Shown here: positions 3,301 through 63,200 of the stretch, one piece after another
Layout: the number at the start of each line of letters is the position of its first letter
How positions within the stretch are numbered: the stretch's first letter is position 1
Source: Capitulum mitella
Taxonomy: Eukaryota; Arthropoda; Thecostraca; Pollicipedomorpha; Pollicipedidae
DNA: 64,000 nt
Reading direction: 5' to 3'
NCBI GenBank assembly: GCA_030062745.1
Contig: CP099842.1
Location: 10,609,838 to 10,673,837, forward strand
The notes under the pieces: generated by a model
Told to the model about the DNA's origin: nothing
The model's database searches: none
What the model saw: the letters and a program-made list of their open reading frames with translations, nothing else
Program-made: the position numbers and the translations under genes

Positions 3301-6300
3301 CTCGATGGGAACCGTTTTTTAGTCGCTCAGTGGTTTGAGTTTTGTTAGATGTGAGTTGCTGTTCTGTCGCTCGGTCGGCCTAGTATAGTGCGATGAGAGC
3401 TGCTGGTCTGTCGCTCGGTCGGTCGAGTATAGTGCGATGAGAGCTGCTGTTCTGTCGCTCGGTCGGTCAAGTATAGTGCGATGAGAGCTGCTGTTCTGTC
3501 GCTCGGTCGGTCGAGTATAGTGCGATGAGAGCTGCTGTTCTCTCGCTCGGTCGGTTGAGCATGGTGGGTCGCGGCGAGGTCCGTACGTGGCCTGACCGCC
3601 GCCCGGTGTCTCGGCCCGCAGGAGTACCTGGCAGCGGTACTGCAGCACGGAAAGGAGCTCCGCGAGTTCCACCGCAACGGCCAGCTGCGCCTGCAGAAAC
3701 TCAACAGGGCCGTCCAGGTGCACCACGCCAACACGGAGCGCGAGAAGCAGAAGGAGCAGGAGCGCATCGAGAAGGAGCGCATGCGCCGCCTGATGGCCGA
3801 GGACGAGGAGGGCTACCGCAAGCTCATCGACCAGAAGAAAGACAAGCGGCTGGCGTTGCTGCTGCAGCAGACGGACGAGTACATCGCCAACCTCACCGAG
3901 ATGGTCAAACAGCACAAGGTACGGCGGAGGCGAGAACGTTTACCGACGTGTCGCCGGGAGCACCGTAGCAGAAGGGCGCCAGGAAAGCTGTCAGCGCGTC
4001 TCTGGACAGTCGAGCTCGACTGGCTGTACCCATACCGCCGATTGTCAGCACTGGTTGTCCTGCACAGCAGAAGCCAGTGATAGTGCCGTGTGCAGGCATA
4101 TTTTGCGGTTCGCGCGTTGAACATCATGCTCACCCAACGAGTTGACATGTCTGCCGAGTTGATGATGTTGTGAAGTGATTAGGACTTCACTGGTCGCCTC
4201 CTGTCAACGTCCCGCTGACTCCGAGCCACGTGCCCGCGCAGGAGGAGCTGAAGCAGAAGAAGCGCGAGCACGCGCGCAAACACGAGGAGGACCCTTTGAC
4301 ACGACGCGTGATCGTCACCAACACGGAGACAGGCATGACGCTCGCCGGCGAAGACGCACCGCTGGCTGTGGAGCTGCAGGTGAGGACCGACACTTGCTGT
4401 AGAGCTGCAGGTGAGGACCGTTGCTGGCGGTAGAGCTGCAGATTAGGACCGTGGCTAGCTGTAGAGCTGCAGGTGAGGACCGCCGCTGTCTGTGGAACTG
4501 CAGGTGAGGACCGTCGCTCGCTATAGAGCTGCAGGTGAGGACCGTCGCTGGCTGTGGAACTGCAGGTGAGGACCGTCGCTGGCTGTAGAGCTGCAGGTGA
4601 GGACCGTCGCTGGCTGTAGAGCTGCAGGTGAGGACCGACGCTGGCTGTAGACCTGCAGGTGAGGACCAACGCTGGGTGTAGAGCTGCAGGTGAGGACCGG
4701 CGCTGGCTGCGGAACTGCAGGTGAGGACCGACGCTGGCTGTAGAGCTGCAGGCGAGGACCGGCGCTGGCTGTAGAGCTGCAGATGAGGACCGTTACTGGC
4801 TGCGGAACTTTAGGTGAGTCGGTGGTCGCCTGCTTCCGCCGTTGGCTGCGGCGTTGGCAGGCGGAACGTCCCCCTGCGACCTTGCCGGGGGGAAGGGATG
4901 ATGCGCCCGTACATTGGGTGTGGCAGTTGCGGTTGCTGTTGGGAAGGACCCGCGTATTTCGATGTCGCGGTGACAGTGATGACAAAATAGGGGCGGAGCA
5001 CCTTCGTTGTTTGGTGTCGAGAGACGTTAGTAAGCGTTGCGTCATAAAAAGTCATTTAAAACTAATTTGCATTCATCGAAGCGACATGCCAGTTAGGTAC
5101 ACACTAAGTTTCACCGATGTGGTTTGCATCGGTAGATGTGTTTTTGTATGCGAAAACTTTGATGGGTTTATGATGTGGCCGCCGTCCTGTGTCTGTGGAT
5201 GCCGCCGTTCAGACGGCCGCCTGACCCGCAGGCGTGGCTGGAGTCCCACCCCGGCTGGGTGGTGGTGCCGGACGAGGAGGACGGCGAGGCAGAGGAGGAC
5301 GGCGAGGCGGAGGAGGACGGCGAGGAAGACGGGAAACCGACCAACGGCAAGGAGGAAGAAATGACCGAGGAGGAGAAGGCTAAGACAATCATCACCAAGG
5401 CGAGGACGGATGATGACGAGTACAAGAGCAAGGAGATGGGGGAGGCCAACTATTACAGGTGAGAGGCTCGCGACTGGAACTGCTGTTGGTCTTTTTCGCA
5501 GTGCTCGGTGGCGGGTCTAGGTTAACTTCTTTCGTGTTTTTATTTTCTGCTGAATCATTAGCTTCGTGGTGTAGCCAGCTTTATGTGCTCTGCTACGGTT
5601 AACAGATGCAGGCTTGTGTCTTCCATCTGATGCCAATCCGTGCTTGTGTTGCGCCGATTTGATGTTGCCAAATCGGTGATGCTCAGGTCCTGGTAGGATT
5701 GGAAGCAGGACTCTGCGTTCTACTGGCTCTGTTTCCGCTAACGTCTGTGACGTCGCCCTTGTCTCTTGCAGTATCGCTCACGCTATCCACGAGTCGGTTA
5801 CCGAGCAGGCGTCCATCATGGTCAACGGCAAGCTGAAGGAGTACCAGATCAAGGGCCTGGAGTGGCTGGTGTCCCTGTACAATAACAACCTGAACGGTAC
5901 GGAGGGACGTGCGTCGTGCGAACCAGTGATCGCCGCCGCCTGTTTTCACGGCGTGGTGTTGTCTGTTACACCGAGTGTCCTGTAGGAGGTCTCAAGGGTT
6001 GGCAGGCTTGTGCGGACTGTTTTGTAAGTTTTGATGAATGTCTTCAAAGAACTGTCAATGGTTGGTGGGCTGGTGCGGATTATTTTGCATGTTTTGACAT
6101 AGAGGCCCGTGGACGAAATGTGAGCACTAATTACATGCTTTTTGTCGTTGATATGGACACCAAGTCCACTAAATTATTGTCATTATCCACGTGCAGGTGA
6201 TTGTAAAGTCTGTCCATTTTTTTCCGGGGGGGGGGGGATAGAACATTTGTGGCATATGTTATTCCCGACTGCTGCCGTGTGGCGCGCGGTCTTTACGATG

Positions 6301-9300
6301 GTCGACGCAGTGGTTAACTAGATCCATGTTGCAAGACTGTTGTCATACAGTTTGGTACAGACAGTCTAAGGTGACGTAAATGAATAGATGGAATTTGGGC
6401 GCAGTTATTCTGTAAAATCACATTTAATGGTTTGACATATCGGACACGCATAAGTTAGGTATATTGTTCCAGTTGATTGTGGCTTGTACGTTGCATCTGG
6501 AACTGATGAATGTGCTGCACAGGCATTTTGGCTGACGAGATGGGCCTGGGCAAGACGATCCAGACGATCGCGCTCGTCACCTACCTGATGGAGGTGAAGA
6601 AGGTGAATGGGCCGTACCTCATCATCCTGCCGCTCTCCACGCTCTCCAACTGGGTGCTTGAATTCGAGAAGTGGGCGCCGTCCGTGCGCGTGGTGGCCTA
6701 CAAGGGCTCGCCCTCGGCGCGCCGGCACATACAGAACCAGATGCGCGCCGCCAAATTCAACGTGCTGCTCACCACCTACGAGTACATCATCCGCGACAAG
6801 GCGGCCCTGTCTAAGGTAGGTTGTCGGCCGGTGTCACCCGTCGGCAGGCGTTGGCGGGTACTCGGACCTTCAGGTGTTACCCGGTGTCCGACGCTGGGCC
6901 AGCTGGGGCGACGTAGAAAAAAGAAAGGCTTAGACGGTGAATTACGTTGATGTGGTACCCTTGCAGCTGAATGTGCGTTGACATCGTTGAGCCATTCGAT
7001 GTGGCAAGCTTGGCCATCATTTATTACATGGCAGGCACCTTAGTAAGAATGGAAACTTCCGACGTATCCTCAGTTTGCAAAGCCACGTGGATGCATTAGA
7101 ACTCCAAATTACGGCCCAATTTACTATTGAACGACGTGATGCTCTGTGGAATCTCAAGTCGTTAGTTAAGTTCCGTAGACATCAACTTCTTGCTATTGGC
7201 GTCACTTGCACCGGCTTTTAAAAATACTCATATTCTGGCTAAAGTTGATGTGCCACCAGTCAAACTCTGCCTTGTGCTAGAAGGCTGACACACGACTGGC
7301 AGCTCATGTCAGCTGTCCTCGGTAACGCCCCTATTTCATCACGCCAGAACCGCTGGAAGTACATGATCATCGACGAGGGCCACCGGATGAAGAACCACCA
7401 CTGCAAGCTGACCTCGGTGCTGAACACGTTCTACGCGGCGCCACACCGGCTCCTGCTGACCGGCACGCCGCTGCAGAACAAGCTGCCCGAGCTGTGGTCG
7501 CTGCTCAACTTCCTGCTGCCCTCCATCTTCAAGGCGGTCTCCACGTTCGAGCAGTGGTTCAACGCGCCGTTCGCCACCGCCGGGGAGAAGGTGCGGTCGG
7601 AGCGGGCGGTAGGGTCGGCCGGCGAGGTCCGACGGACGTCCCCCGTGGCTCTGTGGGCGGGTCTGGAACGGTTAGCCGGGCGACGGACGACCATACAGGA
7701 CAGGTGTCGTAATGCACTGGTCAGAAGTTTGGGATGGGATGATGGGCTTGTCTTGGATGGGTTCGTGCCGTACGGCTGGCTCGTACCTTTCAGACAAGCG
7801 ACATAACTAGGGTTTGACTGAAGGTGGGCGTTCTGGCATTTGGCGCGCACTCACGTCGAAACGCACACCACCGCGCCCCCGGGCTAAAAGGCTGATGCTG
7901 CTGTAGCTGGCTCCATCGTCATGCCGCTGGGCCGTTCAGTGGCTCGGAGCTTCGTTTGTGAGTCTGACTCCGTTGTCTGTGCTCTCGTGTGACGCCGGTG
8001 TCTGTGCTCTCGTGTGATGCCGGTGTCTGTTCTTTCGTCTGGTTCTGGTGTTCGTTACCCACGTCTTTGGTTTCGCTGTTGCTGGGATTTGTGCTCATAC
8101 CTGACACCATTGTCTGTGCTCTGGCCTGGTGTTGGTGTCCGTATTGTCGTCTGATGCCGTTGTATGCTGTCGCCTGACGCCATTGTCTGTCCTCTCGTCT
8201 GATGGTGGTGTGTGCTGTCGTCTGGTGCTGATGTGTGCTGTCGTTTGATGCCGATGTCCGAGCTGTCGTCTGACGCCGGTGTCTGTGTTCGGCCAGGTGG
8301 AGCTGAACGAGGAGGAGACGATCCTCATCATCCGCCGGCTGCACAAGGTGCTGCGGCCGTTCCTGCTGCGCCGACTGAAAAAAGAGGTCGAGTCCCAGCT
8401 GCCGGACAAGGTGGGTGACTCGCTCGGCCGACGCCGTGCTGGACACTCTGGACGCGTCAGCTGCGGCCCCTGCCGCCGGTCTGCTGCGTTTCTCCGCGCT
8501 CAGGCTCGCTGTGGTGTGTGATTCACTGCTTTTAAAAGGACCGCAGGAAGAAAGTGGTCTCGTGCGATTGTTTGGCGTATAGGTCGTGTACCGCGTGCTC
8601 GCTGAAGTGCATTTTGTGTGACTGCGGCTGAAGGGGCTCTCTGGTGTATTGCACAACCAGTGTCCATTACTTTGTCGCACATGCTCTGTTATTAAAACAA
8701 GCACAAGCGGGCAGATTGCAGTGCTGGAGAAACCGGCTTGTCTCGGTTGGGTCGGCGCCACATTGTCGGCATCGACCTGTTAGACAAGCGACATCAAAGG
8801 CTGTTTCAAATGAGGTGAGCGTCTCTAGGGACGCTCATTGATACTGGAACAGACAGTTTCTGTAGAGCGACCAGGGCGGACGATGCGACGTCGCTCCGTC
8901 TCGTTTCTCCCCATCAACTGCCCGTGCGTATCAATGACGTGCCGCGGTGTGTGCCACCAGGTGGAGTACATCATCAAGTGCGAGATGTCGGCGCTACAGC
9001 GGCTGCTCTACAAACACATGCAGTCCAAGGGCATCATGCTGACGGACGGCAAGGGTAGCGGCGCCGGCCGCGGCGGCTCCAAGGCGCTCATGAACACCAT
9101 CATGCAGCTGCGCAAGCTCTGCAACCACCCGTTCATGTTCCAGCACATCGAGGAGGCGTACTGCGCCCACGTTGGCCTCCAGGGCGGCATGGCGAGCGGG
9201 TCAGTGGGAAGGGTCGGCGAACTGTCGCTGGCGCGACCGCGCGACAGTGTGATTGGTGGTCATCCGAACGAGCGAAACCGTCTATCGCGGGTGAAAGGCG

Positions 9301-12300
9301 CGTTTCGAACTTTTGTGGTTTCCCGTACTGCCATCGCCAAACGGTGTGTGGGGTATTGTGAAGTGCGTGTGTTGATTCAGAACTTCATTTATGAAACAGA
9401 GTCATCCTCCTCGTGTCGTTGGCGGCGTGGGTGGACAGGTACTCCATCATGCACACGTCCTCAGACAGGTTTCCGTTCTCTGTCTTTTTATTTGTTATCT
9501 TCAGGGTGCCATGAAGCAAGTCCTGCGTTGCTCGTTGGTTCACTGATGGGTCTGCTGGCCTCTGTATGCTCCCAGAGGGATTTTTGGTCAGCTGCGGTGT
9601 TTGGGCCGGTTGGTCGAAGGTCTCGCTGCTGTTTGCAGGCCGGATCTGTACCGGGCATCGGGAAAATTTGAGCTACTGGACAGGATTCTACCCAAGCTGA
9701 AACACTGCGGGCACCGGGTCCTGCTCTTCTGCCAAATGACCCAGCTGATGGCCATCATGGAGGATTATCTGAACTACAAAGGATACAAGTGAGTCAGACC
9801 AGCTGGCCGTACAAATCGTTTGGTGTGGGTAAGCAGCTGCCAGTCAAGCTTTGAGATACAGAGAAACTCGATGTCCCATTTTTGTTGCTACACCGAGGTC
9901 TGTGGATCAGATATATGGCTTGTCTTGGATGGGTCGTTTCCTCGTTCTCGGCTCCGACCTTTCAGACAAGCGACATCAACTCAGTTTAACCAGAGGCGTG
10001 CGTCCTGCTTTGGCGCACACCGATGATAAAACACACACCAGCAGTTGCTGCCATTTTCGGCAACTCTTCTGGGGTACGACTATGTTGTTCTTGGAATTTG
10101 ATTTGAATGAGTATGTCGGTAGAACGTAGCCAATTGTCTTCGGCTAGGCGGTTCCAGACTCAGTGGGTGCTGGTGACCGCAGCAGGCTGATGCTGAGTAG
10201 TGGTGAGATGAGGTCCTGACTGCCGATGTCGGCGTGGTTGGATCGTCGATGCGGCACCCTGTCGCCAGACTCAGCGATGAGTAGCACCCTTACCCCGCCA
10301 TCAGGTACCTCCGACTGGACGGCACCACAAAGGCCGAGGACCGTGGCGACCTGCTAAAGATGTTCAACGACCCCAACTCCGAGTACTTCCTCTTCATGCT
10401 GTCCACTCGCGCCGGCGGCCTGGGTCTCAATCTGCAGGTGTGTGAGGACCAGGCAAACCTCGGACGGTATCACTTACCCGGACTTTTCTATTCATCCTGT
10501 CGCTCGAGACTAAGTAGTCTGTTTTGTTATCGATTCTGAAAAGCAGCATATGCCACTGCCTTCTCGTTGTGGGCTACCTGCGTATCTGATGATGCTAGTT
10601 TTGGGTTGCCTCCATTCACTATAATTTTGCGTACCATTAGCCAAATCATTCAATTTTCATTTTCCTAATTTGTTCCATCAAGTTTCTCTTTCTTGCAGCT
10701 TCCATTCATTGTATCATTTTGTCCCTCCTCCTGCTATTTTCTGTTACTCTCCCACTTCAGAATAGTGTACCGTCGAGCACGTTTGCCGACTGAACAGTGT
10801 ACCGTCGAGCACGAGAGCAGCCGCTGGTTCAGGTCCAGCGTGTCGGGCGGTTTAGTCAGGCCGCGGCGCGCTGTGGTGCGCCGGCCGCGGTCCGATCTGT
10901 CCCTAACGCTGCCGCCGGCCGGCCTCCGCCCGCAGACGGCGGACACGGTGGTGATCTTCGACAGCGACTGGAACCCGCACCAGGACCTGCAGGCGCAGGA
11001 CCGCGCCCACCGTATCGGACAGAAGAACGAGGTGCGCGTGCTGCGGCTCATGTCGGTCAACTCTGTCGAGGAGCGCATCCTGGCCGCCGCCAAGTGAGTT
11101 GCCGGCCGCCCGGCCCTCTTGTTGCGCTCGTTGTTCGTTGCGTGCTCGTGCCGGGCTTTGTTCTCCCTGGTAGATCTGTTGGTCCGCCTGCCGGTTTCTG
11201 TCGCACCTGTGACTGACGTACGTTCCGATGATGGGCGGGTGGTTGCCTTTCCGGACCGTTGCCTCTGAGCCTTCGTTCGTAACAGCTGTACCGTGGTCGG
11301 CACTGTGACTGTTTTCACTAGGGCGCGTTTGCGGGAAAATCGTGATATCATTGCTCTTGCTGTGGTGGTGGCGATTGCACTACTTGATGTAATACGGCTG
11401 AATCCCAATAAGGTCTGCTATTTTATTCATATGCAGATCAAAGCCATGTAGTTACCTGTCCTCCAAATGAATTCGTTCCAGACGTTCAACACTAACTTTT
11501 GCTTTGTCCGCCCCAGATATAAGCTGAACATGGACGAGAAGGTGATCCAGGCGGGCAAATTTGACCAGAAGTCGACCGGAACAGAGCGGCGTCAGATGCT
11601 GCAGAGCATTCTGCAGGACGAGGACGTGGACGAGGAGGTGAGAGACGAGATCGGCAGGCCCGCCGGAACAGTCGCTTGGTCCTGACCGGCCCAGACCACC
11701 GGCAGACCACTGCCCAGTCCTGACTGGCCCAGACCACCGGCAGACCACTGCCCGGTCCTGGCCGGCCCAGACCACCGGCAGACCACTGCCCAGTCCTGAC
11801 TGGCCCAGACCACCAGCAGACCACTGCCCATTCCTGACCGGCCCGGACCACTGGCAGACCACTGCCCAGTCCTGACCGGCTCGGACCACCGGCAGACCAC
11901 TGCCCATTCCTGACCGGCCTGGACCACTGGCAGACCACTGCCCAGTCCTGATCGGCCCGGACCACCGGCAGACCATTGCGCAGTCCTGACCGGCCCAGAC
12001 CACCGGCAGGCCGCTGCCCAGTCCTGGCCGGCCCAGACCACCGGTAGACCACTACCTGATCCTGCCCGGCCCAGACCACCGCCAGACCACTACCTGATCC
12101 TCCTGATCCTGCTCGGCCCAGACTACCTGCAGACCACCGCCTGATCCTGCCCTGCCCAAACCACTCACACTGCAGTGATTGTAATATTTCGTTGTGTCGT
12201 GGTAATTCCAAAAATGTCACCAGTAATCATACGTCACTTGACTTGGTGACTTTGTCACAAACTGCAATGTAGCCAAGGAAAGTAAGACGCTGGCTGGTCC

Positions 12301-14857: not shown

Positions 14858-14972
14858 GTGCGTGTGGGAGGCCGACTTTTTCAAGCCGGGGACTGATCCC
14901 AGTCCTGATGTTAGTGTTTTGCGTGATGTTCGGGATCAATATTTTTTTCTTTTTGTGCTTGTGGCTTGCGGC

Positions 14973-14978
14973 ATTAAA
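14973..14978 (+). terminator. brm: Candidate brm poly(A) signal (ATTAAA)
   Basis: The common variant signal ATTAAA lies 77 nt after the read-through stop TGA (14894-14896) and is followed by a GT-rich stretch. It would serve if exon 22 is terminal. If a further exon at 15381 is used, another signal applies, and I see no clear AATAAA there. Confidence 0.35.
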
Positions 14979-16052: not shown

Positions 16053-16058
16053 TTTATT
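16053..16058 (-). terminator. DOHH: DOHH poly(A) signal
   Basis: AATAAA on the minus strand lies about 97 nt downstream of the DOHH stop codon (16157-16155), a normal spacing for a cleavage and polyadenylation signal. Confidence 0.6.
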
Positions 16059-16154
16059 AATGGGGCTCAGCTGTCCACACCGCCACCATATTCCATACAT
16101 TACACAGCGTCGGACGTAGAGCGTTGCGTCGGATGAGATGGCGGGGGCTCAGCG

Positions 16155-19100
16155 TTATGCGGCCTTCACCAGGCCGTCCGCGTACTGGAACTCGGCGCTC
16201 TGGCTGTAGTCGCACATGTCGAGCGCCACCTCGACCGACTCGCGGACGGGTCGCGCCGCGTCCGAGCCGTACTGGGCCAGCACGCGCTGACACTCGTCCG
16301 TGCCGATGGAGCCCAGCGCCTCGGCACACTCGTGCCGCACCTGCCCGGGCCGCAGAGACACGTCACGATGACGGAGACCGTTACCGGTGGGAGACGCGTG
16401 ACGAGGGCAAACGCGTCACGAGCGGTGGGGGGGGGGAGCGTTACGGCAGCGGGCGGATATGGGCTATGGATGATGGCCACCCCCTTTGCCACCCTGGAGG
16501 GGAGAGATGCGTTACAAAAGCGAGCATGAGGTGTGCTCTGGGCGCCGGGGCTATGGCGCCAACCATGGAGCGGACACTGCCACCGGGAAACCCGACGGGT
16601 CTCCGGGGCCGTGAGCCGGCCCCGTGGGTAACTGATCGAGCTCAATCGAGCCCAGTGCGATAACCGGGCGCAAAACGACCTCAGTAGTCGGCGCGCCCGA
16701 AAACACCAATAAACAACAAACAATCAGTGCGATGACCACAGTGAATCACCGCCAGCGCGATAGCCTAGACATCCACGGCCAGGGCATGCCCCAACACTCC
16801 TCACAACAGGCACGGGTGTGGGTTCAGCACGGTTCAGCAAATGGGGGGAGGGGACAAACTAACCGCAAGTCTACCGAAAATAGGTACGGCTCTGGGTAAA
16901 ATTCACATTTTTCGGGCGCTGTATGACCAACTACGGTCGAAACCCCGTTTGTTAGATTTGAAAGTTCAAGAAATTGTACAGCAAATGGGAAATACCCATA
17001 TCATACCTTAAAACTAGGGGGACAAATCACCGCTTTTGGAACAATGCGTGGGACATCTACCCCATAGCCCGGCAGAGATTACACTCGCTACAACAGTGGT
17101 GCTAAGGAACCGTTCACTGACCATGTAGCTCTCCTGCTGGTTGCGCAAGCAGTCAGCCAGCTGTGACGTGCAGGCCGGATGCGCCACCTGACCCAGGACG
17201 TATGCGATCTCGTGTCGGAACAGGGCCGAGCCGCAGGTCAGGCCTGCCAGACAGTCAGTCCACGCGTCGACATTGTCCAAATCGGCCGGTCAGTCAAGGC
17301 CAGCGCACATCGGCAAGGTACGAAAGGACCGCGCCGCCCCGGCAACACGCACGTCATACCAGCAGTTGAAAACACACGCCGGACACCGACTGTCTTCGCC
17401 AGTTTCCACAATTAAGCAAGGCGTCCGAATCAAACCACTGTATCCCTGGCCGTCAGCATGCAAACACTAGATGGAAACTTCGACTGCCTTCGGAAGCTCC
17501 TATGGTTACGCGAGGTCTCCTGAAGCAGACTGTTGTATCCCCGGGCCCCAGCATATCACGGTCGTGACCACCGGCATCTCGCTGCCCGCGGGCCAGCCGA
17601 CCCCTGCGCCGCGGCGCGTCTCACCGTCAGCCAGGGCGCGTACGCTGTCGGCGTCGCCGCGGTTCCGCAGCGAGAACATGGCCCGGTACCGCTCGAAGAG
17701 GGACAGCGACTCGTCCAGCAGGGCCTCCCGCAGCTGGGCGCAGCTCAGCGGACTGGGCTCGTTCACCGGCGGCGTCGGGTCCACCGACTTGTACGGGTTT
17801 GTCGTCAGACTCTCCGACTCGCCCTGCGGGCCGCCAACAGACACACCGTGAACCGATTCGGCCGAGACGCAGTTCAGGTCTGTGGTGTCAGCAGCCAGTG
17901 CAGAGGCTCGCGACGCTGCTGATGCACTCATCATTCGGCTGAAAAGACGGGAAGACTGCAGAGGGATGTAGTCTGGTGTAGTCTGATATGTAGTCAAAAC
18001 GGAAACTATGCGACATCCCTCCAACGTACAAAGGAGATCTGCGTTTTGGGAAACGCGGAAGGCACAGCAAATATCATGACGACGTAAAAATTGTGTTAAC
18101 GCAATCTATCATGACGACGTAAAAATTGTGTCAACGCAATCAGCAATTTTTTACGCATGGCACTGTCTACCGGGCCACAGGCGCAGAGCAGAAACGCGAG
18201 GAAAATGCACCGAACCAGAACAGCACCCGAGTACAGAACGTCGGCCAGCGGACCGCGAACGTCACGACCGAGCTGGCGCCGCCTTTCCACCTCCTCCCGC
18301 CCCACGACGGACCTGGTGCCGCCTTTCCACCTCCTCCCACCCCAGGACGGACCTAGCGCCGCCTTTACATCTCCCGCCCCAGGACGGACCTGGCGCCGCC
18401 TTTACACCCCCTCCCGCCCCAGGACGGACCTGGCGCCGCCTTTCCACCTCCTGCCGCCCCACGACGGACCTGGCGCCGCCTTTCCACTTCCTCCCACCCC
18501 AGGACGGACCTGGCGCCGCCTTTACATCTCCTCCCGCCCCAGGACGGATCTGGCGCCGCCTTTACACCTCCTCCCGCCCCAGGACGGACCTGGCGCCGCC
18601 TTTCCACATCTCCCGCCCCAGGACGGACCTGGCGCCGCCTTTCCACCCCCTCCCGCCCCAGGACGGACCTGGCGCCGCCTTTACATCCTCCCGCCCCAGG
18701 ACGGACCTGGCGCGCCTTTCCACCCCCTCCCGCCCCAGGACGGACCTGGCGCCGCTGCAGCCACTCGATCCGACCGACGGCCAGCTGGCAGGTCTCGGCC
18801 ACCTCCTGAGCCGGGTCAGAGCTGAGCCGCCTCAGCACCGGCAGCGCCGCCGGGTCGCCGATGGCGCCCAGCGCCTCACCTGCGGCAGCGGAGCGGGCCG
18901 CGTCAGTCTGCGTCCCACACGGCCGACACCGGCCCCGGACGGACGATAATGGCCACAGAAGGCCGACAATGGACCACAGACGGCCGAAAATGGTCACAGA
19001 CGGCCGACACCGGCCCCGACCAGCCACAGCCGTACAGCCACGGACCGACAGCCCATCTCAGCTACAGAACCACACTGAACAGTTCGCACTGAACGGGGAG

Positions 19101-19617: not shown

Positions 19618-19649
19618 TGTCTGGAGCTGAACAAAACAACAGCTGTGTG

Positions 19650-23569: not shown

Positions 23570-26500
23570 TCATGAGCTCTCCATTATCCTTCTGTATGCT
23601 ATCTGGTCTTCGCGCATTCTCTGGAACACCTTGTACTTGCCTTCGTGAAATCTGAAAATATTTCAAGCCATTATGTATGAATATCTGAATCTGTCTGACA
23701 GCCTGACAGCCACACTGAGCCCCAATACTATGCCTCGCAAAAAGACAGGACGTACTGAGAAAACTCAACCCGCCCTTCCATACAGAGACAGGAAAAAGCT
23801 GTGACGCCAGCACGAAAATCATTTGACAAAGACTGGCGCCGTTCGGGTCGAATGACATCCAGACAGCCTCACGTCTCACAGCAAGCACGTCCAACTGCCC
23901 ACCTCAGGTCTCCGAAATACCGTCCAACCGGCTGCCAGACTGCTTGGGGGGACTCAGTTCCCGACAGCGCCAGGTCTGGGAGGGGGGCGGCGCCGGACTG
24001 TCTCACCTGGCGACGCTGGGTCTGGGGGTGATACGCCGGCCAGGGCCGCCCATCTGCGCCCTGACATCCTCCGCCGCCAGGCCGGAGGCCACGGCGCCCA
24101 GCATGGCGGCGCCTAGTAGCACGGCCTCCGGCTGGTCCGGACAGGTCACCGGCACACCTGAGGTCATAGGACCACAGGTCACCGGCACAGCTGAGGTCAC
24201 AGGTCAAGGTCACAAGTCAACGGCACACCTGGGTCACGGGTCATCCGACCATGCTCATGGGCTCTGGCTGGTCCGAACAGGTCAACGGCGCACATGAGGT
24301 CACAGGTCACGGTCACAGGTCATCGCGACCCAGCTCACGGGCGCACCGGGCGTCGTGGCGTGTCTCCCAATGGTCGCGGCGATGTGAGATTAACGGATTT
24401 ACGCAGTCCAATCAACTAATGCCCAGGTCACGATCCAAAGTTCTGAACGCCATCGGGGAAAGACACGAGAACGCAAAACTAGGAATTTCTGCATTGTACA
24501 AAGGAGAGTAGTCCGAGAAAAAGTGGGCTGATGGAGAACATGAGTCAATTCTTTCCACGCGCTGCGGCGATATCATCTCCTCATCGATTTAGCGCCTCCA
24601 GCACCATTCCATCCACCGACCTCCAGTCTCAAGTGCAGCATTAGGTGTGAACCGGTCCACACAGGGAGAGTGAAATGACTCCGTAATAAAACGCAGACAG
24701 TGGCAAAGGACACGGCGGGGCGGACAACGTGAGGACGGCCAGAGACTAACACAGTGTCAGAGTAAGGGGTCACATAGTGTCCGTGGACCCACGCAGTGTC
24801 GGAGGCACAGACCCACGTCGTTTCGGAGCGGGAACCCGCGCGGTGTCGCAAGCACGGCCCACATCATGTCAGAGACGAACACCAGACTGGCGGCCATGGG
24901 CAGGGTCTGACAATAGAGCTGAGGTAAAGGTAGCAAAAGCAGGACAACGCGAAAGATGGTGTTCAGTGACGCCACCATTTGAAAAGCCTAACATGGGTCC
25001 TATGTCCGCCGAATGGAAAATAACGCAAAACGTGATTCATCCTCGACTGTTTGGAGAAGGTCCACGCCTGGAGGGCGGTGGCGGCAGTGCTGAGGCCAGT
25101 GTTCGGCAGGGCTCCGGGGAACACAACGCTGAGAGCAGGAGCCGTCAGGCGGCCGGCGGTCGGCGGTCCGGCCGGCCCCTCCGTACCGAGCACGTCGGCC
25201 AGCGTCTGGACGAACAGCGACGACTTGGTGATGCCGCCGCACGCGTACACCGACGATATCCGGTGCCCGCCAGAGGTGAGCGCCTCCACGATGCTCCGCG
25301 AGCCGTACTGAAAACGGGCGCAGGGCTCAACCGCCGACCAAGACAGACGCGCTCTCAACAGCACGGGCCGTGGGTGGAACTAGACACCATCTTCGGCCAC
25401 TGCAGCCTAAGTCCAAAAGTAAAGCAAATGATAACGCATACAGACGGGTGATTCCACAGAAAACGCAGGACACATTATTACCAACGCGATACAGCCCACC
25501 ATGTTTCTAGGTAAAAACTCGTGTCTGAAAAACGTTCCACATCATTACTTTTTTGAATACCCTGGACGCAAGTAATTACATCCACGGACGCTTCCCTCAT
25601 AGTGCGGCACGGTGGCCAATATCCCGTTCCAGGTCCATACGCACACATATCGCCTGAATGGTGGCCAGGTACTGACGGGCCAGGCTGCGAGGACTGGTGT
25701 CCAGCGTCAGACCGCTGACCTGTGGGTGTCACACAAACGTCACAACGCGGCAGGGACCACACCAGGGTACAACTACCATAACATCAGGACTCACGACACG
25801 ACAGGGATCATAGCATCACGGCAGGGGTAACAACACATTATGGCTCGCCACACAGCAGATATCATCAAATCACAGAAGGCTAACTCTGCACAGGGCACTG
25901 TCCTTCGACAATGCCTTAACGACACCTAGCGTCTACCATGAGCTAATTACATGTCCATAAATGCATTCATACGTTCACCAATACGAGAAACGTAAACCTC
26001 TCAGTGGTGGACGCATGGCAGAGTAACCAGAGAGTACTAACCATTCCACGGAGGCTCGGATCGGCGTACGGCGACCGGTTGCCATGGTGATCAGGATAGA
26101 CGTGCAGGTCGCTTGCCAAGAAGGCCACGTCTTCTATACTGTTTTCTGCGGCCATTTTGACGAGGGATTCCTCAAGCTCGTCTTGAATACAGCTGCAACA
26201 CAGAAGATAACAAGCCGCAGTGAGTCGAATTCGCAGCAATGAGAGGAAAAAAGCAATTCAAGGACTGAAATTAACAGAGGGATGAACACGATCAACATTT
26301 CGTTCATCTTCGCCACCACTCACCAGCCAAGTGCGCACCGAAGAACCTGATGAACAGAGGAAATATGTGACAAAAGTTTTCATGAGATCTGATTCTTTTC
26401 GCATGTAATGCACCTCTTTGTGCGACAGTGCCCGACGCTTGCTAGTCAGTACGAGGAGAAGATCATGTGGCATGTACCTATTGCTACGCACAGCGAACCG

Positions 26501-38500: not shown

Positions 38501-38605
38501 TTCGGTCGCGTTACACGGCGTCCTGCGACAGGTCTGACGTGGTCCTGCGACGCCGACATGGAGTACACGCCATACTGCGCCGGCTGTAGCCGCTGTCATC
38601 AGCAG

Positions 38606-38640
<35 letters not shown>

Positions 38641-42993: not shown

Positions 42994-42996
<3 letters not shown>

Positions 42997-44790: not shown

Positions 44791-44793
<3 letters not shown>

Positions 44794-44837: not shown

Positions 44838-44840
<3 letters not shown>

Positions 44841-45357: not shown

Positions 45358-45381
45358 TTGTGGGTGCCGCGGCACCCACAA
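45358..45381. repeat. 24-bp perfect palindrome with repeated half-sites
   Basis: TTGTGGGTGCCG is followed directly by its reverse complement, centred on CCGCGG. The half-site CACCCACA recurs at about 45393 and 45413. Confidence 0.85.
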
Positions 45382-45637
45382 ATGGAAATGGACACCCACA
45401 GTACAATCTGGGCACCCACAGCTTAAATAATGCTTAAATATTGAAATATAGTTATATTCTCAGTCCCGTGAATTTTCCCGTTATATTCTCATGACGTGAA
45501 CCTTCTAAAATCAGTTTTGTAAACAATAATCAGAACTCATTTACTCCGCGGTCACTCACCAGTTGCTTTCCCCACCACCCTCCATGTAACATTGTGTCAA
45601 ACTGGATTATCATCGGTTCCTACAGAAAGGTCCTCCA

Positions 45638-53000: not shown

Positions 53001-54142
53001 ATTCAAATGACGATTTCTGAAATTCGATAACAATGTCCATAACCAGATGAACCTTGAACATGGCTATCGGGCTGAAGCCAACTCCTTCGAAACGGCTGAT
53101 TTGAGTATCACACGGTTACAATATGTACTCGTAACTACATACTGCTGATCCCGATTTTTTCTTTCAAACGACGTGGGTCCCATTTGTTCTGAGTCCGCTG
53201 TCCTCTTAACCCACTTGTTCCGAGTCTGGTAGTATATCTCACCGCGCGGTGTTCCGGCATATCGTCTGAGATGTTCGGGCTCCGGTCCCAAACATCACTC
53301 AGTTCGGATAAGATTATAAGAAAATTAAGATGATCATGGGTGTGGAATTGGGACAAATTTGGTATGGAAAAATGAATTCGTCGAACCCTAAAATGTGGCA
53401 ATGGCAGTGTATTTACAGTACCTTATTTCATAAAGCAATAAAACATATGAACGAGTCAAGATGCTGGTATGGAATTCCATACCAATGATTTCCTTTCGTA
53501 TGGCTAGCTCAATACCAAAGGTATACAAAGTTACGCCCTTGATGATGATAATAATGGGATGATGTTAGAAGATGATGCGGTGCTGAAAGAGGATGGTACG
53601 GTTAACGTTCATTTAAAAACAATTGGAAATAAAAAACAGCGTTCGTAGTACTCAGGGGATATTGCACATCGGTAATAGATATTTGGTTATGCCGCTTTCC
53701 TGCTGTTCTGCCTGTGCTGTTCTCCTAACGCGATTACATGCATGATAAGAGCATCACAGTTCATCCATGAAGAGTTTAAACTGTTTCAAATGACATCATT
53801 GCGTCTATTTAAATGGTTTATAGGACTCGGTTTTGATTCCCCACCGCCATTGATGGATGCAATGACATTTGTTCCAGTACAAATATTATGTACATGCTGT
53901 AACTTCGCCGTTTTACTTATAACTGTTTCTTTCAGATCCGTTCGTACCAGTGACAAATACGTGCTCGCTTAAGACATGCCAAGGTGAGATAAGGATACGT
54001 CTTGTCGTTCTCATACGTAGAAATTCTCTTGCAGAATACATGAAAAATGTCACGATAAAATGGTGAAACAATAAGTGCTAGGAAATCAGATGTGTTCTAT
54101 GCTTTGTTTTTCATTTTCTCGAGATATCCTGGACAGTAATAC

Positions 54143-54203
<61 letters not shown>

Positions 54204-57200
54204 AATATATATACATGCATCGTTTGCTGAATGAATAAGACTCCATTCATTGCAATTAACGGGATCTTTACAGAGCCTTCAAAGTTTGGCTACATGACGG
54301 GAGAGGCGTACCGGTACCGGTACAAGGCCAACACGGCCAGCACAGTTCTGGGTGTCAGCAGCCGAAGCACGACGCTCACGCTCGAGTGTGACGTCATCCT
54401 GCACGTCATCTCTCCCTGTGAACATGCCATTACGGTGAGAAGGGGAAGTTGAACCCAGATTTTATATTGAGGATTGCTTCCAATGTTCGTGAACACTTTT
54501 GCGTCGGACATATTTAATACCCCAGTTGGAGGATTATGAGGCGAGCGGCAGTCTTCACCCGAGACCGAAACCGGATCAGACGTGGCGGTCGTGTCGCGAA
54601 ATTGCACGGCACGATGCGAATCCTTATCACCTGGTTCAGCGCCTGAGGCAGAACTGCTTCACGTTTGGAGATACTTGGGTAGCGAGAGCAGGGGCACGCA
54701 AAAACTGTGTTGATCCCAGCACCGCCCATTTCAACACACGCGAGCTACGTAAAAAAATGAAAAAGGTAGTGTTTCTCAAACACAACTTTTGTAGCTTCTT
54801 GTGGGTGCCTTCTTCGTGGAATGGACATTATTATATTCATGCATCTGACAAGGAGTTGCATGAATGCAGTGAGAGCCCGCTCACACGTTTTCAGATGGAG
54901 GATGTCCGGCTTCACACGGTGGCCGTCGACGAGGACTCATTAACGGATAAAGACGTTGAGAGCGACAGCTTCACGTCCCCCCTGGAGGGGTTCCAACTCA
55001 GGTGAGCCGGTGCTGCTGGGGGACAGAAACAGGACAGGACAGAACTCCTCTCAGGGAGGAGCTGAGCTCGGCCAGCGTGGCCGCCTCGGGGAACAAGTCC
55101 TTGGAAAGTGATGGCGTCATAGCCGGAGATTTTAGCGCCTGCCGAGGCCCCTCACGTCATTCTCTCATGCACACTGTCTGGAAATAGTAATTAATCGAGA
55201 TGATATTGTCACAGGATTACAACAATTTTGAGGTGTTGGCTGGTTTATAAGACGTCTGCATTTTCATCCTTGTTTGTGAGTCGTATGTAATGCAACTTTC
55301 ATGGCCCCTCTGGACGTTTAAGAGCTATGAACTGTGGGGAAGGACAGACACAAAGGCTTTATGGAAACAGCCTGGCCCAGAGACTTGTTGAATGACTTCT
55401 AAGTCAGTGTAAAATGTCAAAATGTCATCATGAGTTCATGCGGTACAGGTACAGGACAGGTATAGTACAGTATCCGTAGCCGGTATACGGTAAGGTATAT
55501 AGCATATATTGTATGCGGTACAGGTACAGGAATCCGACAGCCTCGAGGATAACCGTTAATGGCTGAGAGCAGAAACCATTCGAATTTTATGGATGGGCAA
55601 GGTGCAACAGCGTACGTAACTGACGCATAAGAGCGTACGGTTTAACAACAAAATCTAAACTCTCATTTTTGGTTTCAAAAGATCGTTTTTGAAACACAGC
55701 GTTCGGCCGGTTTCAGGTTCGGTTTCCAGGATGGCATAGTAGACTCGGTTTGTCCGGAGACTGGAGATCCAACCTGGTCAGTCAACATCAAGAAAGGCAT
55801 CGTTTCCGCCCTTCAAAACTCGATGGACAGGCTGGATGTGGACTACGACGAAGTGGAGGTGCGTCCGTTTTTATTTGTTCTTGACAGATTAGCTGCTGGA
55901 CTCATTCATACCCGGAACTGTGTGCTAGTTTGGAAGCACAGCTTTATGCTGAATGATCTGCCGATTCTTTTTTTCTGATATTGCACTTCACCCCAGCATT
56001 TATTTCACATGATGTATATTTGTTTCGATCACAATAAATCCGCAGTACGCGATTTACATAAAATGATTAACCGGTAGGAGATGGTGACCGGCATTGATTA
56101 AGGTGTGTGCACTACGTCGAAAAATTTGCGTTGAAGGTATACAGAATCCGGGGAGAATGCATTACGTAATTTATGGAAGACGAGTTTGATTCCTCCGCTG
56201 AGGCCATGCAATGTCGCAGCGTGACATCACCGGAGACTGTCCGACCTCCTACACCGTGGAGGGCGTCCAGAGCACCGGCCTTGATCATCAACAAGATCCG
56301 CAATCTCAACGCCTGCGTCGGCCGGTTCGCCCACACCTCGCACATCCAGGGCGTCGGCTACAACATCAAATCGGTGAGAACGCCGTCCTGCGCTGCTGCG
56401 GCCGTGGCCGTACGTGACCTTGACCTTGCCTCTGCGTTGACCGGACCATCACACTGGTCGGAGCTGGTCAGAAGTGACTGTACCGTCGGGGCGGCGATGC
56501 TGGTCGGCCTGTGACTACATCCCTGTTCAGTTTCAGCCGCCGCTGGTCGGCCTCTGACTACATCCCTGTTCAGTTTCAGCCGGCGCTGGCCGGCCCTCTG
56601 ACTGCGTCCCGGGTCTGTTTCAGCCGGTGCAGAACATCCCGCTGGTGTCGAGCTCCAGCGAGTGTCGCCAGACAGTGCAGACTCGCCGGCTGACCAGCGT
56701 GCAGTGCGAGGAGAGCCACCAGCTGAAGCCGTTCTCGCACAACGCCTCGGGCGCCGTCACCGTCACCGCCCAGAACCTGACGCTGATCGACGTCAGTGAC
56801 GCGGCCGCCGCGCAGGGTGGGTCGATCCGCTGCGGCATACCGCAGCAGTCTGCTGACCCTGCAGGATCACGCAGGCTGACTGAGTAGTTGGCCTCGTGTA
56901 GGGTTTGCGTGAAGCGAGTCTGTATTTCATCACGTAGTTTGCAGAACCACTATGGTTAAATTACTCCTAATCGATCCAGCAAGAAATCCAACGTACTGAT
57001 GCATTTTTTGCGACCCTGGGTTGGCCCCTCCCGTCTTCAACAAAAAAGGACGAGAAACTGCAGACTTTCCTACTATCTATTTTCTGTCAAAACGAAAACA
57101 AACTGGTGACTCCACAGAGCAATGTCAGGCACTGATCTTCACGCCAATGCGTTTGCCACAGCGCGTGAGTCTCATACGTCTCTGGAGGTGAGGATAAAGA

Positions 57201-60200
57201 TAATACTTTGCGTCTTCACGCATTACAGTACCGGCACTTCCTTGTTTGCGTGCGGTCGTCAAACGAGTATGTGGTCCCCGTGCTCATCACTGCACATTCC
57301 TTCTCCAACACTGCTGGTTTGATCCGTGCCCCTCCATGTTTCCTCAGACGTAGTGCAGAAGCGGGAGAGCCTGCTGTACAACCACATGCCGGCCAAGTCG
57401 GCCTCCCTCAGCCGGGAACAGTCCCTAGGCGATGCCGAGGCGCTCGTGTTGGACCTCTGCAAGGACGTGAGTACTGGCTGATGCTGGTGTTGGGGGAAGT
57501 GTGGGGGTAGACGTTTGTAGTGCCAGTTTGCTACCCGATTTTACGAACAAACCCGCACGTGGAAAGCAGGAAGCCATCGAACTTTGAGCCGAATCCTGAC
57601 GTCAGGTCGGTGAGCTGGCGGAATGCTTGCGTCTGTAACGTAGCGTCAAACGAAATGACCATCAACGCCAGCCACATCAGCGGGCCCGGGGCGGTTTCGG
57701 CTACCGTCCGGAGGAGGGGCCGGGCACGTGACAGCGACGTTACGCGGCGTGACACCTCTGCCGCAGGACTCGGAGGTGCGGGTCGACTCGACCACGCAGT
57801 TCTCGCAGCTGATCGACGACCTACGCGGCATGAGTCCAACGGAGATCCGCTCCCTGTACCGGCTCAGCCCGAGCATCTGTCGACACGGACGGTCAGTACG
57901 GCCCAGCCCCTCTCCCGCGCCACGAACCGTTACCGGCGCCACGGACCGTCATTGCTGGCACCTCTCTAGAGCCATGGACCGTCAGTACGGCCTCTCTCCA
58001 GAGCCACGGGCCGTAGGTACGGCACCTCTCCAGTGCCACGGGCCGTCAGTAAGGCCCTCTCCAGAGCCGCGGGCCGTCAGCACGGCCCATCTCCAGAGCC
58101 ACGGGCCATCAGTGCGGCCCGTCTCCAGGGCCACGGACCGCCGGAGACGGATCCGTAGGCTCGGCTCCGGCGTGACGCGGCCACTCCCTGCCGACGGGAG
58201 CCGATGAAGTTGCTGAGCTGCGATGAAAGCGAGATTCTCGGTGTCACCGAAGTTTCGCGTTTGAACACTCAGAAGTTTCAGGAGTATGCGGTTAACGTTC
58301 CTTTGTCTTCGGAGCGCCCGATTTTGAGGCGGCGCGTAGACATCATCACACGTCGATAAGCCGCCAGCCAGGCCGTTCACGGCCGGCTGCCACGTTGTTA
58401 CGTTGTCGGATGAGCACACCGTCACCGCACCGTGCCTGATGTCCGCTGACAGCCAGCTGATCGAGGACGCGCTGCCCGTGGTCTCGACGGCCGCCTCGCT
58501 GGAGCTGATGAGGGACCTGATCCTGGACGAGGAGGTGACGCCGGCGGTGGCCAACACGTGGCTCATGGCGCTCAACTTCATACCCAGGTGGGACTGCGGT
58601 CGGTTCGTCGTGCGCTGCCCACGCCAGCCTGCTGGCGCGGCCAGCAAGCAGAGGGGACCGAAGTACAGACTGTTCCGCTGTCCTCGCCTCTCGCAGCCAG
58701 GAACGGGGGAGCCGCGGACACTGTCCGCCTCGGTTTTCAAGGGCAGAACGAGGGACCGGATTTTGAAAGCCCGTTTGATCCTGGTTCTAGTCTTCTGTCA
58801 ATGCCCGCGCGGATCAGGTGTCCTGTTCCTTGTGATCAGTTTAAACCAGGCGATACAGTTAACTGATGTTATGTTCCATATATTGCATTGTCGATCATTG
58901 GTTTTGCTGGTGTTGACAGTTTTTCTGACTTCATGTCCTGTTCTACACATTCCAGTACAGACCAGAGGATACTGCTGGCCTGGTGTCCAGTTCCATATGT
59001 TCCACTGTAGACCAGGGGGTATTGCTGACCCGATGTCCTGTTCCGTCCGCCTCAGTGTCGACCAGGAGATGTTGCGGACGGCAGGGGGCCTGCTGCAGGT
59101 CCGGCAGCAGGAGGTGGTCACGCGCGCCCGACTCGCCGTCGGAGCCGTGCTGAACCAGTACTGCCGCCAGCACGAGCGCTGCGACCGGGACAGCGTGGCG
59201 CTGGAGATCGTCGACGAGATGGCCCGGCCGCTGGGTGGCGGCTGTCGCGCCGAGACGCCCGCCGCAGAGAAGGAGGTCAGTCGGCTGCCGGCCGCCCGCT
59301 GATGGCCAGTGACGCTGCAAGAACGGCGGGCATTGCAGTGTCAGTGTTGAAACGAGTCATCACGTGGCGCAAAGGCACTGCCGAGCTTCGTTTTGGATTG
59401 ATCTGGGATCTCACTGGGGCTTCATTTGACACAATATTTGGGTGGGATGATTTCCCTGCTTACCTTACCTTGATCTGTTACTGAACCGAAATATGTCTGG
59501 GCTGGTGGCCCTGCGGATGTGTTGACACTGTTTCTGCGGCAGCTGCTTTGTTCGAAACCCAGTTATACCGGACCTCGAATTAAATCAGAGCGTAAATAAA
59601 ATCCATAAATGCCTGTCATAAACGCTCACGAGGCCAGCTACGACATTTGACACACTAGACGTATATCAGGAACTTGTTACAGATTCAGTGTGACAGCTTA
59701 ACGGAGTCACAGAGGCGCAAACAGTGACGCAAAAAATCGCATGCATGATTCAAACCATCATGTCATAGTGGCTTGACCTATGATGACTGAGTAATCATCC
59801 CATTGAAATCCAGGAACATCTGTGGTCACAGGCAAAGGCGATGGCATTTTGATGCTGCTGCATTTAATGCTTGGAAGTTTGGACGGAAAATATCGAAGGA
59901 ACAGCACTACCGTGATCCGCATCAAACATAGCTTCAAGTGATACTACGAATCGCAGAGTTCCTGCAACTCTCGGCTAACGTTTTCGCGTGTGTGTTCAGA
60001 TTCTGCTGACGCTGCGAGCGATCGGCAATGCCGGTCTGTCTCCTCCAGGTGTAGTCTACGCCCTCAATGAGTGCTTTATGGACCGAGACAACCCTCCAAG
60101 AATCAAAGTGGCCGCGATTGAGGCCTTCAGGTGAGATATCCATACCGTCTTACAAATATTTTCCTACTTTACTCGTGATCTGATGGTCCGTGATTACTGT

Positions 60201-63200
60201 TTTTGTAATGACATTTTCATGCGTACGACGAAAAGTATTGCACGGTGAAAACTTTTTTGGGAATGGTGCTGGTAAAATTACCCTAGGCCTGTTTTCATTT
60301 GTTAACCTGGTGCAATGAAGACTCTTCCATACCACCGCAAAAAAGGCGGCAGCTACTGTTGTACACTGTCCTTTTATGCAACCGCCATGGTCGTCGCCGC
60401 TTCAGTTAGTTTTCGGTACGGACAGCTGACCGCCTGGAATCCCCAGCCCCAGTCTGTGATCTGTGTCAGACTGTCCAGTGCTCAGCTGCCGTGCGCTGCT
60501 GTCTCAGTAGGATCCCTGTGTTTCAGGTGGCTTACGGCGTGTGGTGCAGTCGGACTCTCGTGTTCCAGGCGGGTCACTTGCCTTTCCTCAGTGGCACGCC
60601 TCTGTTTTAGCCGTTTCACGTGCTGCGTCTCAGGCTGACCTTTGCCTTCCAGGAGGCTCACCTGTTCCGTCTCAGTCGGACTGTCTGTGTTCACCTGCTG
60701 CATTTGAGTTGGACCTCAGCATTTCGGAAGGTTCACCTGCCTTGTCCCCGTATGCAGTCCTGTTTCAACGGTTCATGTGCCGTGCACCAGTCGGCCGTCC
60801 TGTTTCAGGTGGTTCACCTGCCGTACCGCAGTCGGCCGTCCTGTTTGAGATGGCTCACGTACTGCGGCTCAGTCGGCCGTCCTGTTTTAGGCTGTTTACG
60901 TGCCGTCCTGTTTCAGACTGTTCACTTGCCATCCTGTTTCAGACTGTTCACGTGCCATCCTGTTTCAGACGGTTCACCTGTATGCTGCGCCGGGACGAGA
61001 TGCGCGCCGTGTTCCGGGACCTGGCTGAGGACTCGGAGGTCCGCATAGCCGCTTACCTGGCTCTGATGCGCTGTCCGTCGCACGAGGAGATCGGCCTCGT
61101 CAGGACCACGCTGGAACAGGAGCAGGTCAACCAAGGTGACGTCATCGGGACCAGCCGGCACCGCGGTGTAGCTCCGAAAACTGCCGTCAGGCTAGTGGGG
61201 ATGCGGTCTTGACACCGCAGGGCGGAATATAGGCGATAAGCTGGTAGCGGTGAATAAACCACGTCGCCCGAGTGAGCAATAAGCGTTGGAATAGCGCATA
61301 CTCGTCTAACGATCAGAGCCTTTTTTCGAACGAGGTAATCACTCTAAACAATTATCCTGACTGTAGAAATGATACGCCATTTTGATGTTGTCGTTTTTGC
61401 GATGCCTCGTCTCAAAAAGCGCACTGGTTGAAATCAGTCATATCAGTGAAATCAGGCCTTTTTGCTCTGTTCTGCTCATGGTGGCCATACAGGTCTCCTC
61501 ATGTTACGTACGTCACTGAACACTTCCAAACCAGCGTACAGCCAATGCCTCGCTCCGCAAGCATGATAGCTGCTCCCTGCTAGCCTGGCCTGATGGCCAT
61601 AAACATTAAATATAAAGTCTAGGTTAGACACGGTCCTGTCAGAGCCCTCTCATGCAGGCCGGCGAATATTTGAACAGTCCAGTCTCCACATTGCTGCGTC
61701 CATCTACTGCCGCGTATAGGGTGTACGCGACCCGTTACGTCCACTGTTGAAGATAGTTTGGCAACCATGGCCCAGCGGACTTAACCCTGAACCCGCTGAC
61801 CCTCGCAGTGGATCCACTGACCTCTGGCCTGATCCCGCCGGTCCCCACCATTACCTCACCTAGTCTCACCGACCGTCTGCTTGACTCGATTGGCCAGTGA
61901 TATGATAACACCATCACCGGGAGTAGGTAGGTGTGGGTGTAATTCCGCTCATCGTCACCGCGACGATCCCCACTCTGACTCCATCAGCTCTCAAGGACCG
62001 TCAACCGGGAACCCATCGATTCTCGCCGACCGTCACCCTGACTTCACGGACTCTCAACCTACCCACACTGATCCCAGTCCTGACTCTGCCAACTCCCGCT
62101 GTGACGGCGCCAGCCCGCACCCTGACCCCATCGACCTTCACCCGGGTTACATTGACCTTCACCTTGATTTAACCAAACACAACCTTGATACCACATAATG
62201 TTACCACTCATACAAAAAGTACCGATGGAATTCGTATAATTCCTTTGTTACTGGCTCAAAACACACCCGCTGATTTTCTGTGCAGCACCACAGGTTCACC
62301 CAGGTTGCGCCTGCAGTTGTTGCGGTGGAAGGATGAGAAGGGCAGTAGTGGCATCAACACGAACTTATTTATCCCTATTCTTGTCAACTCCTGGAGAGCC
62401 CACCATCCGCAGGTGCCAGCGAAATGCCGACGTCCTATGCGTTCCGGGCGCCATTTTGTTTTGGCCACGGACATATCTACTGAAGTTGCGCTTCAAAAAC
62501 TTCCCGATATTTGGTTAAAAGACCTCTATGACCTTGCTTCGCTTCGTCTAAACGCATGTGACAGATCGATGGCCTTGAAACAGGAAGAGTACGTAGGAAA
62601 CGTCATCATTTTTTACCCACACGATACCATTTCTTTCAAAGTGACGGTGACGGTGAGAACGTCGGCTTTTTGCTGATGCGATTGCTGATGTGACACTTCG
62701 ATTCGGTTGGATAGTGACGTGCGATGATGTTACAGTCGGTTCGTTCATCTGGACGCATCTGAAGAACCTGCAGGAGACGGCATCACCGTACCAGCTGGAA
62801 GTCCAGGGACTGCTCGCCGACCTGCACCTGCAGAAAAAGTTCATCATTGACACCAGAAAGTTTTCTAGAAACTTTGAGATATCGGGCTTCAACTCTGAGT
62901 TCCATGTCGGAGCGTCGCTGGATTCGAACCTGATCTTCAGCTCGCGCAGCTATGTGCCCAGATCTCTCAACTCCAATCTGACACTGCAGCTGTTCGGAGA
63001 GAGTGTCAACTTGGTCGAGGTAAAGCTCTTCTTAGAACTGGTTAGCGCAAACATTCTTACTGCACACTTCGTAGAACAGGACGGAACGCTTGGACTAAAA
63101 GCAGAACTGGCTGGTCTAGCCGTCAGTGTCCGGTGACAACTCAACCGGCTACCGGACATGAATTTCCTAACCAGACCAGAGAAAAGACAGGTGCCAGGAC

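Follow-up and report, generated by a model that had tools for sequence, protein, structure and literature searches.

Junction arrays in the window

The DNA analysed here, a 64-kb stretch of contig CP099842.1 of the Capitulum mitella assembly GCA_030062745.1 (hereafter the window), carries five genes of a barnacle: brm/SMARCA (+), DOHH (−), an FGGY kinase (−), AGK (+) and a vitellogenin-type large lipid transfer protein (LLTP; +). In these genes several intronic minisatellites extend across an exon–intron boundary and repeat the exon edge into the intron; we refer to them as junction arrays. Gene models combine codon statistics, homology (human or family) and GT–AG rules, and the window models comprise 46 introns and 92 junctions. 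The exon frames of brm, DOHH, FGGY and AGK match homologues, with the spliced DOHH model reaching 73–74% identity to Amphibalanus amphitrite, its best named match, and 76% to each of two further sequences, in line with a barnacle host. LLTP was recognized by Pfam matches in open frames together with codon statistics. The first and last exons of brm, AGK beyond exon 5 and LLTP outside 56296–61135 were uncertain or excluded, and FGGY intron 2 was entered with a wrong 3′ end in the junction table.

Arrays were called with Tandem Repeats Finder (TRF). For each junction, the 30 bases spanning it were also compared, ungapped, with the same intron, and a match of at least 21/30 was counted as an echo of the junction. 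Nine of the 92 window junctions (five donors, four acceptors) passed this threshold (Table 1). At brm exon 7, DOHH exon 2 and both ends of AGK intron 3, arrays of several copies span the boundary and contain exon as well as intron bases. The AGK donor array repeats the end of exon 3 including its GGDGT motif, and the acceptor unit at the other end of the same intron is unlike the donor unit. The DOHH exon 2 boundary agrees with homologous proteins.

The initial annotation had listed ten splice sites at which an array repeats the exon edge. Nine are borne out, with LLTP exons 9 and 11 as weak cases: at exon 9 the first copy is diverged and TRF places the start of the array only at 57938, and the exon 11 copy is not listed by TRF at score 50, although it reaches 28/40 on a longer stretch. 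A weak donor case at brm intron 2 was absent from the list and comes in addition. At the tenth site, the FGGY exon 5 acceptor, the exon edge is not repeated (best echo 16/30), as the repeat ends before leaving the intron. Missing from the same list were non-crossing arrays of these genes, for example those at 3348–3566, 7965–8286 and 11679–12148. Altogether the window genes hold 18 intronic TRF arrays, and 6 of these reach 5 bp or more into an exon.

Table 1. Edge-associated repeats and other intronic arrays in the window. The last column gives the best echo of the junction, with the number of positions scoring at least 21 in brackets.
Feature	Position	Strand	Repeat	Evidence	Exon edge	Best echo
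brm exon 7 donor array	4360..4802	+	31-bp unit, ~14 copies	TRF, copy alignment	ends 4379; 20 bp of exon in array	28/30 (13)
DOHH exon 2 donor array	18266..18755	−	40-bp unit, ~12 copies	TRF	exon 18746–18879 (−); 10 bp in array	25/30 (11)
AGK exon 3 donor array	36171..36775	+	46-bp unit, ~13 copies	TRF, tblastn	ends 36188	27/30 (10)
AGK exon 4 acceptor array	36962..37532	+	degenerate, 39/78-bp unit	TRF 36962–37028, 37361–37532	starts 37516; 17 bp of exon in array	26/30 (6)
FGGY exon 10 acceptor duplication	24141..24203	−	33-bp unit, ~2 copies	TRF, tblastn	starts 24157 (−)	27/30 (2)
FGGY intron 4 repeat	27589..27679	−	two 47-mer copies, ending at the intron's last bases	TRF		16/30 (0)
LLTP exon 7 acceptor array	56499..56627	+	43-bp unit, 3 copies	TRF	starts 56624; entered by only 4 bp (TRF)	21/30 (1)
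LLTP exon 9 donor array	57877..58140	+	32-bp unit		ends 57891	21/30 (1)
LLTP exon 11 acceptor copy	58991..59070	+	degenerate, 50 bp upstream		starts 59056	20/30 (0)
LLTP exon 13 acceptor array	60722..60977	+	26/41-bp units	TRF	starts 60969	24/30 (4)
brm intron 2 donor copy	998..1138	+	single weak copy 96 bp into intron, without GT			22/30
brm intron 5 array	3348..3566	+	44 bp x 5; counter-example	TRF	not at edge	
brm intron 11 array	7965..8286	+	23–25-bp unit	TRF	ends near acceptor 8297 without crossing	
brm intron 17 array	11679..12148	+	38 bp x 11; counter-example	TRF	begins 41 bp inside intron	

Three further repeats were noted in these genes. DOHH intron 2 contains a near-perfect 35-bp tandem duplication (97%, 18072–18141) that is distinct from its donor array and does not lie at an edge. 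An in-frame coding array of about three 18-bp copies lies in brm exon 8 (5274–5329) and encodes acidic residues of the EEDGEA type, and a (CAG)14 tract occupies 38600–38641, about halfway along AGK.

Junction copies in genes outside the window

Comparison genes were picked without regard to repeats. They comprised the CCT/Hsp60 genes (ten stretches covering 59 of 61 CCT matches, with two matches left out), five 40-kb blocks set beforehand, from which 38 good exons and 25 introns with two good exons each were pooled, and five adaptin loci chosen for compactness. Most gene models in the sample derive from codon statistics and family matches. Junction copies were found at 7 of 138 junctions in the CCT/Hsp60 stretches, 2 of 63 in the blocks and 2 of 74 in the adaptin loci. 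Pooled with the window, 20 of 350 junctions in 19 introns reached at least 21/30 (11 donors, 9 acceptors).

As a control, junctions were paired with introns of other loci. Only 5 of 10,434 such swapped pairs reached 21/30, as against 18 of 280 real junctions (adaptins not yet included), and the junction copies are therefore not a product of chance. Two introns on doubtful exons of one locus (L030) were removed from the pooled count and, further below, from the crossing counts and the test of non-crossing arrays; they are still contained in the swapped control and in the intron-length, GC-gradient and GC-rate figures.

Several-copy arrays spanning the boundary with exon and intron bases recur at comparison loci, among them L023, L024 and L029. 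At a CCT acceptor (L024:1985–3112) the unit is 55 bp long with 34 bp of exon inside, and one upstream copy is identical to the junction over 30/30 bases. At L029 a 35-bp unit runs from the donor in about 15 copies. A second L029 array (5344–6446) has a 28-bp unit repeated about 42 times from the fifth base past a CCT donor, with an echo of 19/30; it is perhaps edge-seeded and was not counted as crossing.

The loci with junction-type arrays are spread over eight contigs: C4 for the window, C1 and C3 for the blocks, C2, C5, C7, C13 and C14 for the CCT loci, and C4 and C5 for the adaptin loci. Junction arrays are thus a real and recurrent feature in independently chosen genes, and a genome-wide occurrence would be an extrapolation from these eight contigs.

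A dispersed repeat or transposon was considered as a common source. When 13 junction arrays were searched against all sampled sequence, with same-locus matches excluded, none matched another array or any other sampled sequence, in support of the initial annotation's statements that the units are unrelated in sequence and do not form one transposon family. Within the sampled sequence, a single transposon family is rejected for these 13 arrays. The 28-bp array abutting the L029 donor gave two marginal matches of 40–45 bp in sampled sequence, and two interior arrays (L026 and L028) weakly match each other.

Is the exon edge favoured?

TRF (score 50, periods 15–120) called 51 arrays in the 175 sampled introns. 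In the window and CCT genes, introns with arrays had a median length of 696 bp (n=31) as against 402.5 bp for array-free introns (n=84, P=1.7 × 10−5). Once arrays were collapsed to one unit, the median of the array introns shrank to 460 bp (P=0.07 versus array-free), as would be expected of insertions. Array growth lengthens introns, and a fair null therefore places the seed unit rather than the grown array.

With seeds placed uniformly, 4.8–4.9 arrays are expected to cross an exon edge by at least 5 bp, and 13 of the 51 did so (P=4 × 10−4 to 5 × 10−4), 8 at donors and 5 at acceptors. The window contributed 6 of 18 (2.1 expected) and the remaining loci 7 of 33 (2.7–2.8 expected, P=0.013–0.015). 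A lag-based detector, applied with the adaptins included, gave 24 of 69 arrays against 9.3 expected at its loosest setting (P=2 × 10−6) and 12 of 55 against 6.0 at its strictest (P=0.011); outside the window the corresponding figures were 16 of 49 against 6.1 (P=9 × 10−5) and 6 of 34 against 3.6 (P=0.13). An earlier value for the edge bias (P=7.5 × 10−6) included the two doubtful L030 introns, and the later, weaker figures are preferred.

The initial annotation had claimed a bias to the exon edge on the understanding that minisatellites normally arise anywhere. That understanding needs a correction, as a unit of about 40 bp, in introns as short as these, overlaps an edge by chance in roughly one case in ten (4.9/51). 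The bias itself persists with uniform seeds but not under a raw coverage null, which expects 10.7 arrays in the window where 9 are observed and thus shows no excess. We set the coverage null aside because arrays lengthen introns, but its outcome does count against the claim of the initial annotation. The edge bias is modest, and it depends both on the settings and on the null.

Part of the bias is absorbed by base composition. In array-free introns the G+C content (GC) is 61.5% at 10–60 bp from the edge, then falls to 54.2%, 50.1% and finally 48.0% at 160–210 bp. Array bases are richer in GC than the remainder of the same introns (57.5% versus 53.7%, P=0.012). The five blocks contained 29 arrays in 200 kb, with seeding rates per 100 kb of 28.4 at 55–65% GC, 23.5 above 65% and 2.2–7.0 at 35–55%. 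Weighting the seeds by GC, in three versions of the rates, raised the expectation to 5.9–6.6 against the 13 observed (pooled P=0.003–0.008), and outside the window to 3.3–3.9 against 7 (P=0.03–0.08). GC-rich intron edges therefore explain part of the edge excess, and repeat enrichment at exon edges in general needs testing against GC gradients. The edge-to-centre gradient is strong enough to be worth a study of its own.

Arrays that do not cross a boundary also lie close to edges (38 arrays, Kolmogorov–Smirnov P=6 × 10−4; 20 arrays outside the window in introns shorter than 1 kb, P=0.001). This closeness is what the gradient predicts, rather than an effect of the splice signals. Some of these arrays may be crossing ones with a diverged first copy.

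Splice-site copies and the origin of the arrays

We consider it fairly probable (about 0.6) that the junction arrays are ordinary minisatellites in short introns with GC-rich edges that are nearly neutral where they touch an exon. An array would start when a segment, mostly of 20–80 bp and by chance including the exon edge, was duplicated in tandem, and it would grow by the addition of copies into the intron. The outermost copy would still connect the unchanged exon end with a functional splice site. If this exon-proximal copy is the one used, the mRNA stays the same whatever the number of intact copies behind it. Junction arrays would be common in this genome because minisatellites are abundant, introns are short (array-free median of about 400 bp) and their edges are GC-rich.

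The initial annotation had proposed microhomology at AGGT-like junctions, or R-loops, as possible causes. The depth to which arrays reach into the exon, relative to the unit, is compatible with a uniform distribution (Kolmogorov–Smirnov P=0.22, or 0.55 rescaled; 13 arrays, low power). Nothing therefore ties the ends of the duplications to AG|GT, and AGGT microhomology is not supported as the main cause by this small set. A donor-specific R-loop cause is not favoured either, since donors and acceptors are affected about equally.

The inner copies mostly retain strong splice signals. In nine arrays 76 of 93 intronic copies retain GT or AG. Of 74 intact decoy copies at 12 junctions, 50 equal or exceed the authentic site in score under simple matrices that were not trained on barnacles. 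With identical or better-scoring sites in a row, sequence strength cannot explain the choice of site. In longer introns, exon definition predicts that the exon-proximal site is chosen, and intron length has been proposed to decide between exon and intron definition (accessible text of PMC9225289). In a brief look at intron definition, 2 of the 19 introns with echoes and 20 of the 158 others measured at most 250 bp, with no visible difference. The arrays amount to natural experiments on exon definition.

Several observations weigh against this account of chance duplication and near-neutrality. The rate of arrays is non-monotone in GC, with a high value also in the bin below 35% (four arrays), and intron-only rates are flatter. 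The two-fold residual that survives GC weighting means that composition is maybe not the whole story. Within the copies, the splice motifs show slightly lower divergence than parts of the unit taken at random (P=0.05; P=0.11 on distinct variants). Such lower divergence would hint at constraint, a point that we do not press.

The residual could instead mean that exon edges give rise to minisatellites more often than their composition accounts for, owing for example to nucleosome or exon-chromatin boundaries or to recombination at exons. Edges would then be favoured about two-fold over what length and GC predict, fading into the intron; a mark at the exon boundary would direct the duplication, and the spliceosome would pick among up to about ten near-identical sites by distance from the exon alone. 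We regard this as a tentative alternative, on the unlikely side. It would account for the excess over uniform seeds both within and outside the window, for its persistence at about two-fold after GC weighting and for the closeness of non-crossing arrays to edges, and a boundary effect predicts that donors and acceptors should both be affected, as they are. The effect nevertheless shrinks with GC weighting and with a wider margin, and is absent under the coverage null. The sample is small, its gene models come mostly from codon statistics and family matches, and crossing is detected slightly more readily where selection holds the exonic copy. The duplicated splice sites might also be kept by function, as support for exon recognition, as a splicing delay or as regulated alternative ends. 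In each of the five donor arrays examined, the motif shows lower divergence than the remainder of the unit (in one marginally), the circular-shift test over nine arrays gave the P of 0.05 cited above, and human IFI6 does use downstream repeat units as splice donors (accessible text of PMC4526556). The same trend holds in only two of four acceptor arrays, divergence in the GT/AG columns is not significantly lower (9.7% versus 13.4%, P=0.18), the distinct-variant count falls short as well, and 25 of 74 extensions that decoys would cause are in frame, as would be expected of one third in the absence of selection. A functional role is accordingly improbable.

Two other explanations carry less weight still. 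If the arrays were an assembly artefact, they would be absent from the genome or present in wrong copy numbers; long arrays are easily misassembled, as happened to an amphioxus counterpart in the draft genome (accessible text of PMC3087553) and our data come from one assembly without reads. Copies within an array nevertheless differ and have shared variants, and like structures stand at loci on eight contigs, which makes this explanation very improbable. We hold it least credible that the arrays are remnants of intron gain by tandem duplication across AGGT, a model proposed for amphioxus globins (PMC3087553) and in keeping with novel introns reported at variable tandem repeats on exon–intron boundaries in human segmental duplications (PMC2812944; accessible text in both cases). 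The donor and acceptor units of the AGK intron are unlike and do not match each other, the brm and DOHH arrays stop short of the acceptor, and array introns, once collapsed, do not differ significantly in length from array-free ones. No intron flanked on both sides by one and the same exonic segment was seen in AGK, brm and DOHH or suggested by the collapsed lengths, a survey that did not take all 20 junctions one by one. The arrays appear younger than the introns that hold them.

We therefore favour chance duplication of nearly neutral edges. The pattern would mostly reflect abundant minisatellites, short introns and GC-rich edges, with a two-fold residual being possible.

Comparison with known systems

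Among the literature matches listed, in a search of partial coverage, there was no arthropod case of exon-edge minisatellites, and the combination of barnacle, minisatellite and intron gave no match. The accessible text of the Pollicipes genome paper makes no mention of exon-edge minisatellites, and that of a Daphnia tandem-repeat survey (PMC3152781) neither contains the word 'splice' nor mentions exon-edge arrays.

The closest counterparts are found outside the arthropods. In amphioxus, tandem duplications of exon/intron boundaries known as mirages have been described in Adh3, the globins BflGb6 and BflGb9, PGBD5 and troponin C, with units of 10–72 bp in Adh3 and 150–160 bp in the globins; many copies retain AG/GT, and normal splicing reportedly proceeds undisturbed (accessible text of PMC3087553 and PMC3902484). 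As far as those texts go, the barnacle arrays resemble mirages in that they span the boundary, repeat exon and intron bases, occur at donors and acceptors and in many copies keep GT/AG. They differ in that the barnacle case concerns an arthropod and many unrelated genes, and is accompanied by a chance model, whereas the mirages, according to the same texts, are backed by PCR with reverse transcription and by data on somatic instability and the barnacle arrays are known from the sequence of one assembly. Length polymorphism is a further trait of mirages.

Human genes offer partial parallels. In the minisatellite of IFI6 (6-16), units beside the exon supply several donor sites, as in the barnacle; it is a single locus at which, by the accessible account, inner copies are used, unlike what we propose here (PMC4526556). 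In human segmental duplications, minisatellites averaging 30 bp x 4 touch exon–intron boundaries and can change gene structure (accessible text of PMC2812944). Those repeats belong to recent paralogues with changed exons or introns, whereas the coding edge in the barnacle appears unchanged. The Rogers model of intron gain at AGGT shares with the barnacle arrays a duplication across a splice-like junction, but it makes introns, whereas the barnacle arrays look like additions to existing ones.

We conclude that the barnacle arrays are of the same kind as amphioxus mirages, in a new lineage. If they occur genome-wide, mirages would not be a lancelet oddity but a general outcome in animal genomes rich in minisatellites and short introns.

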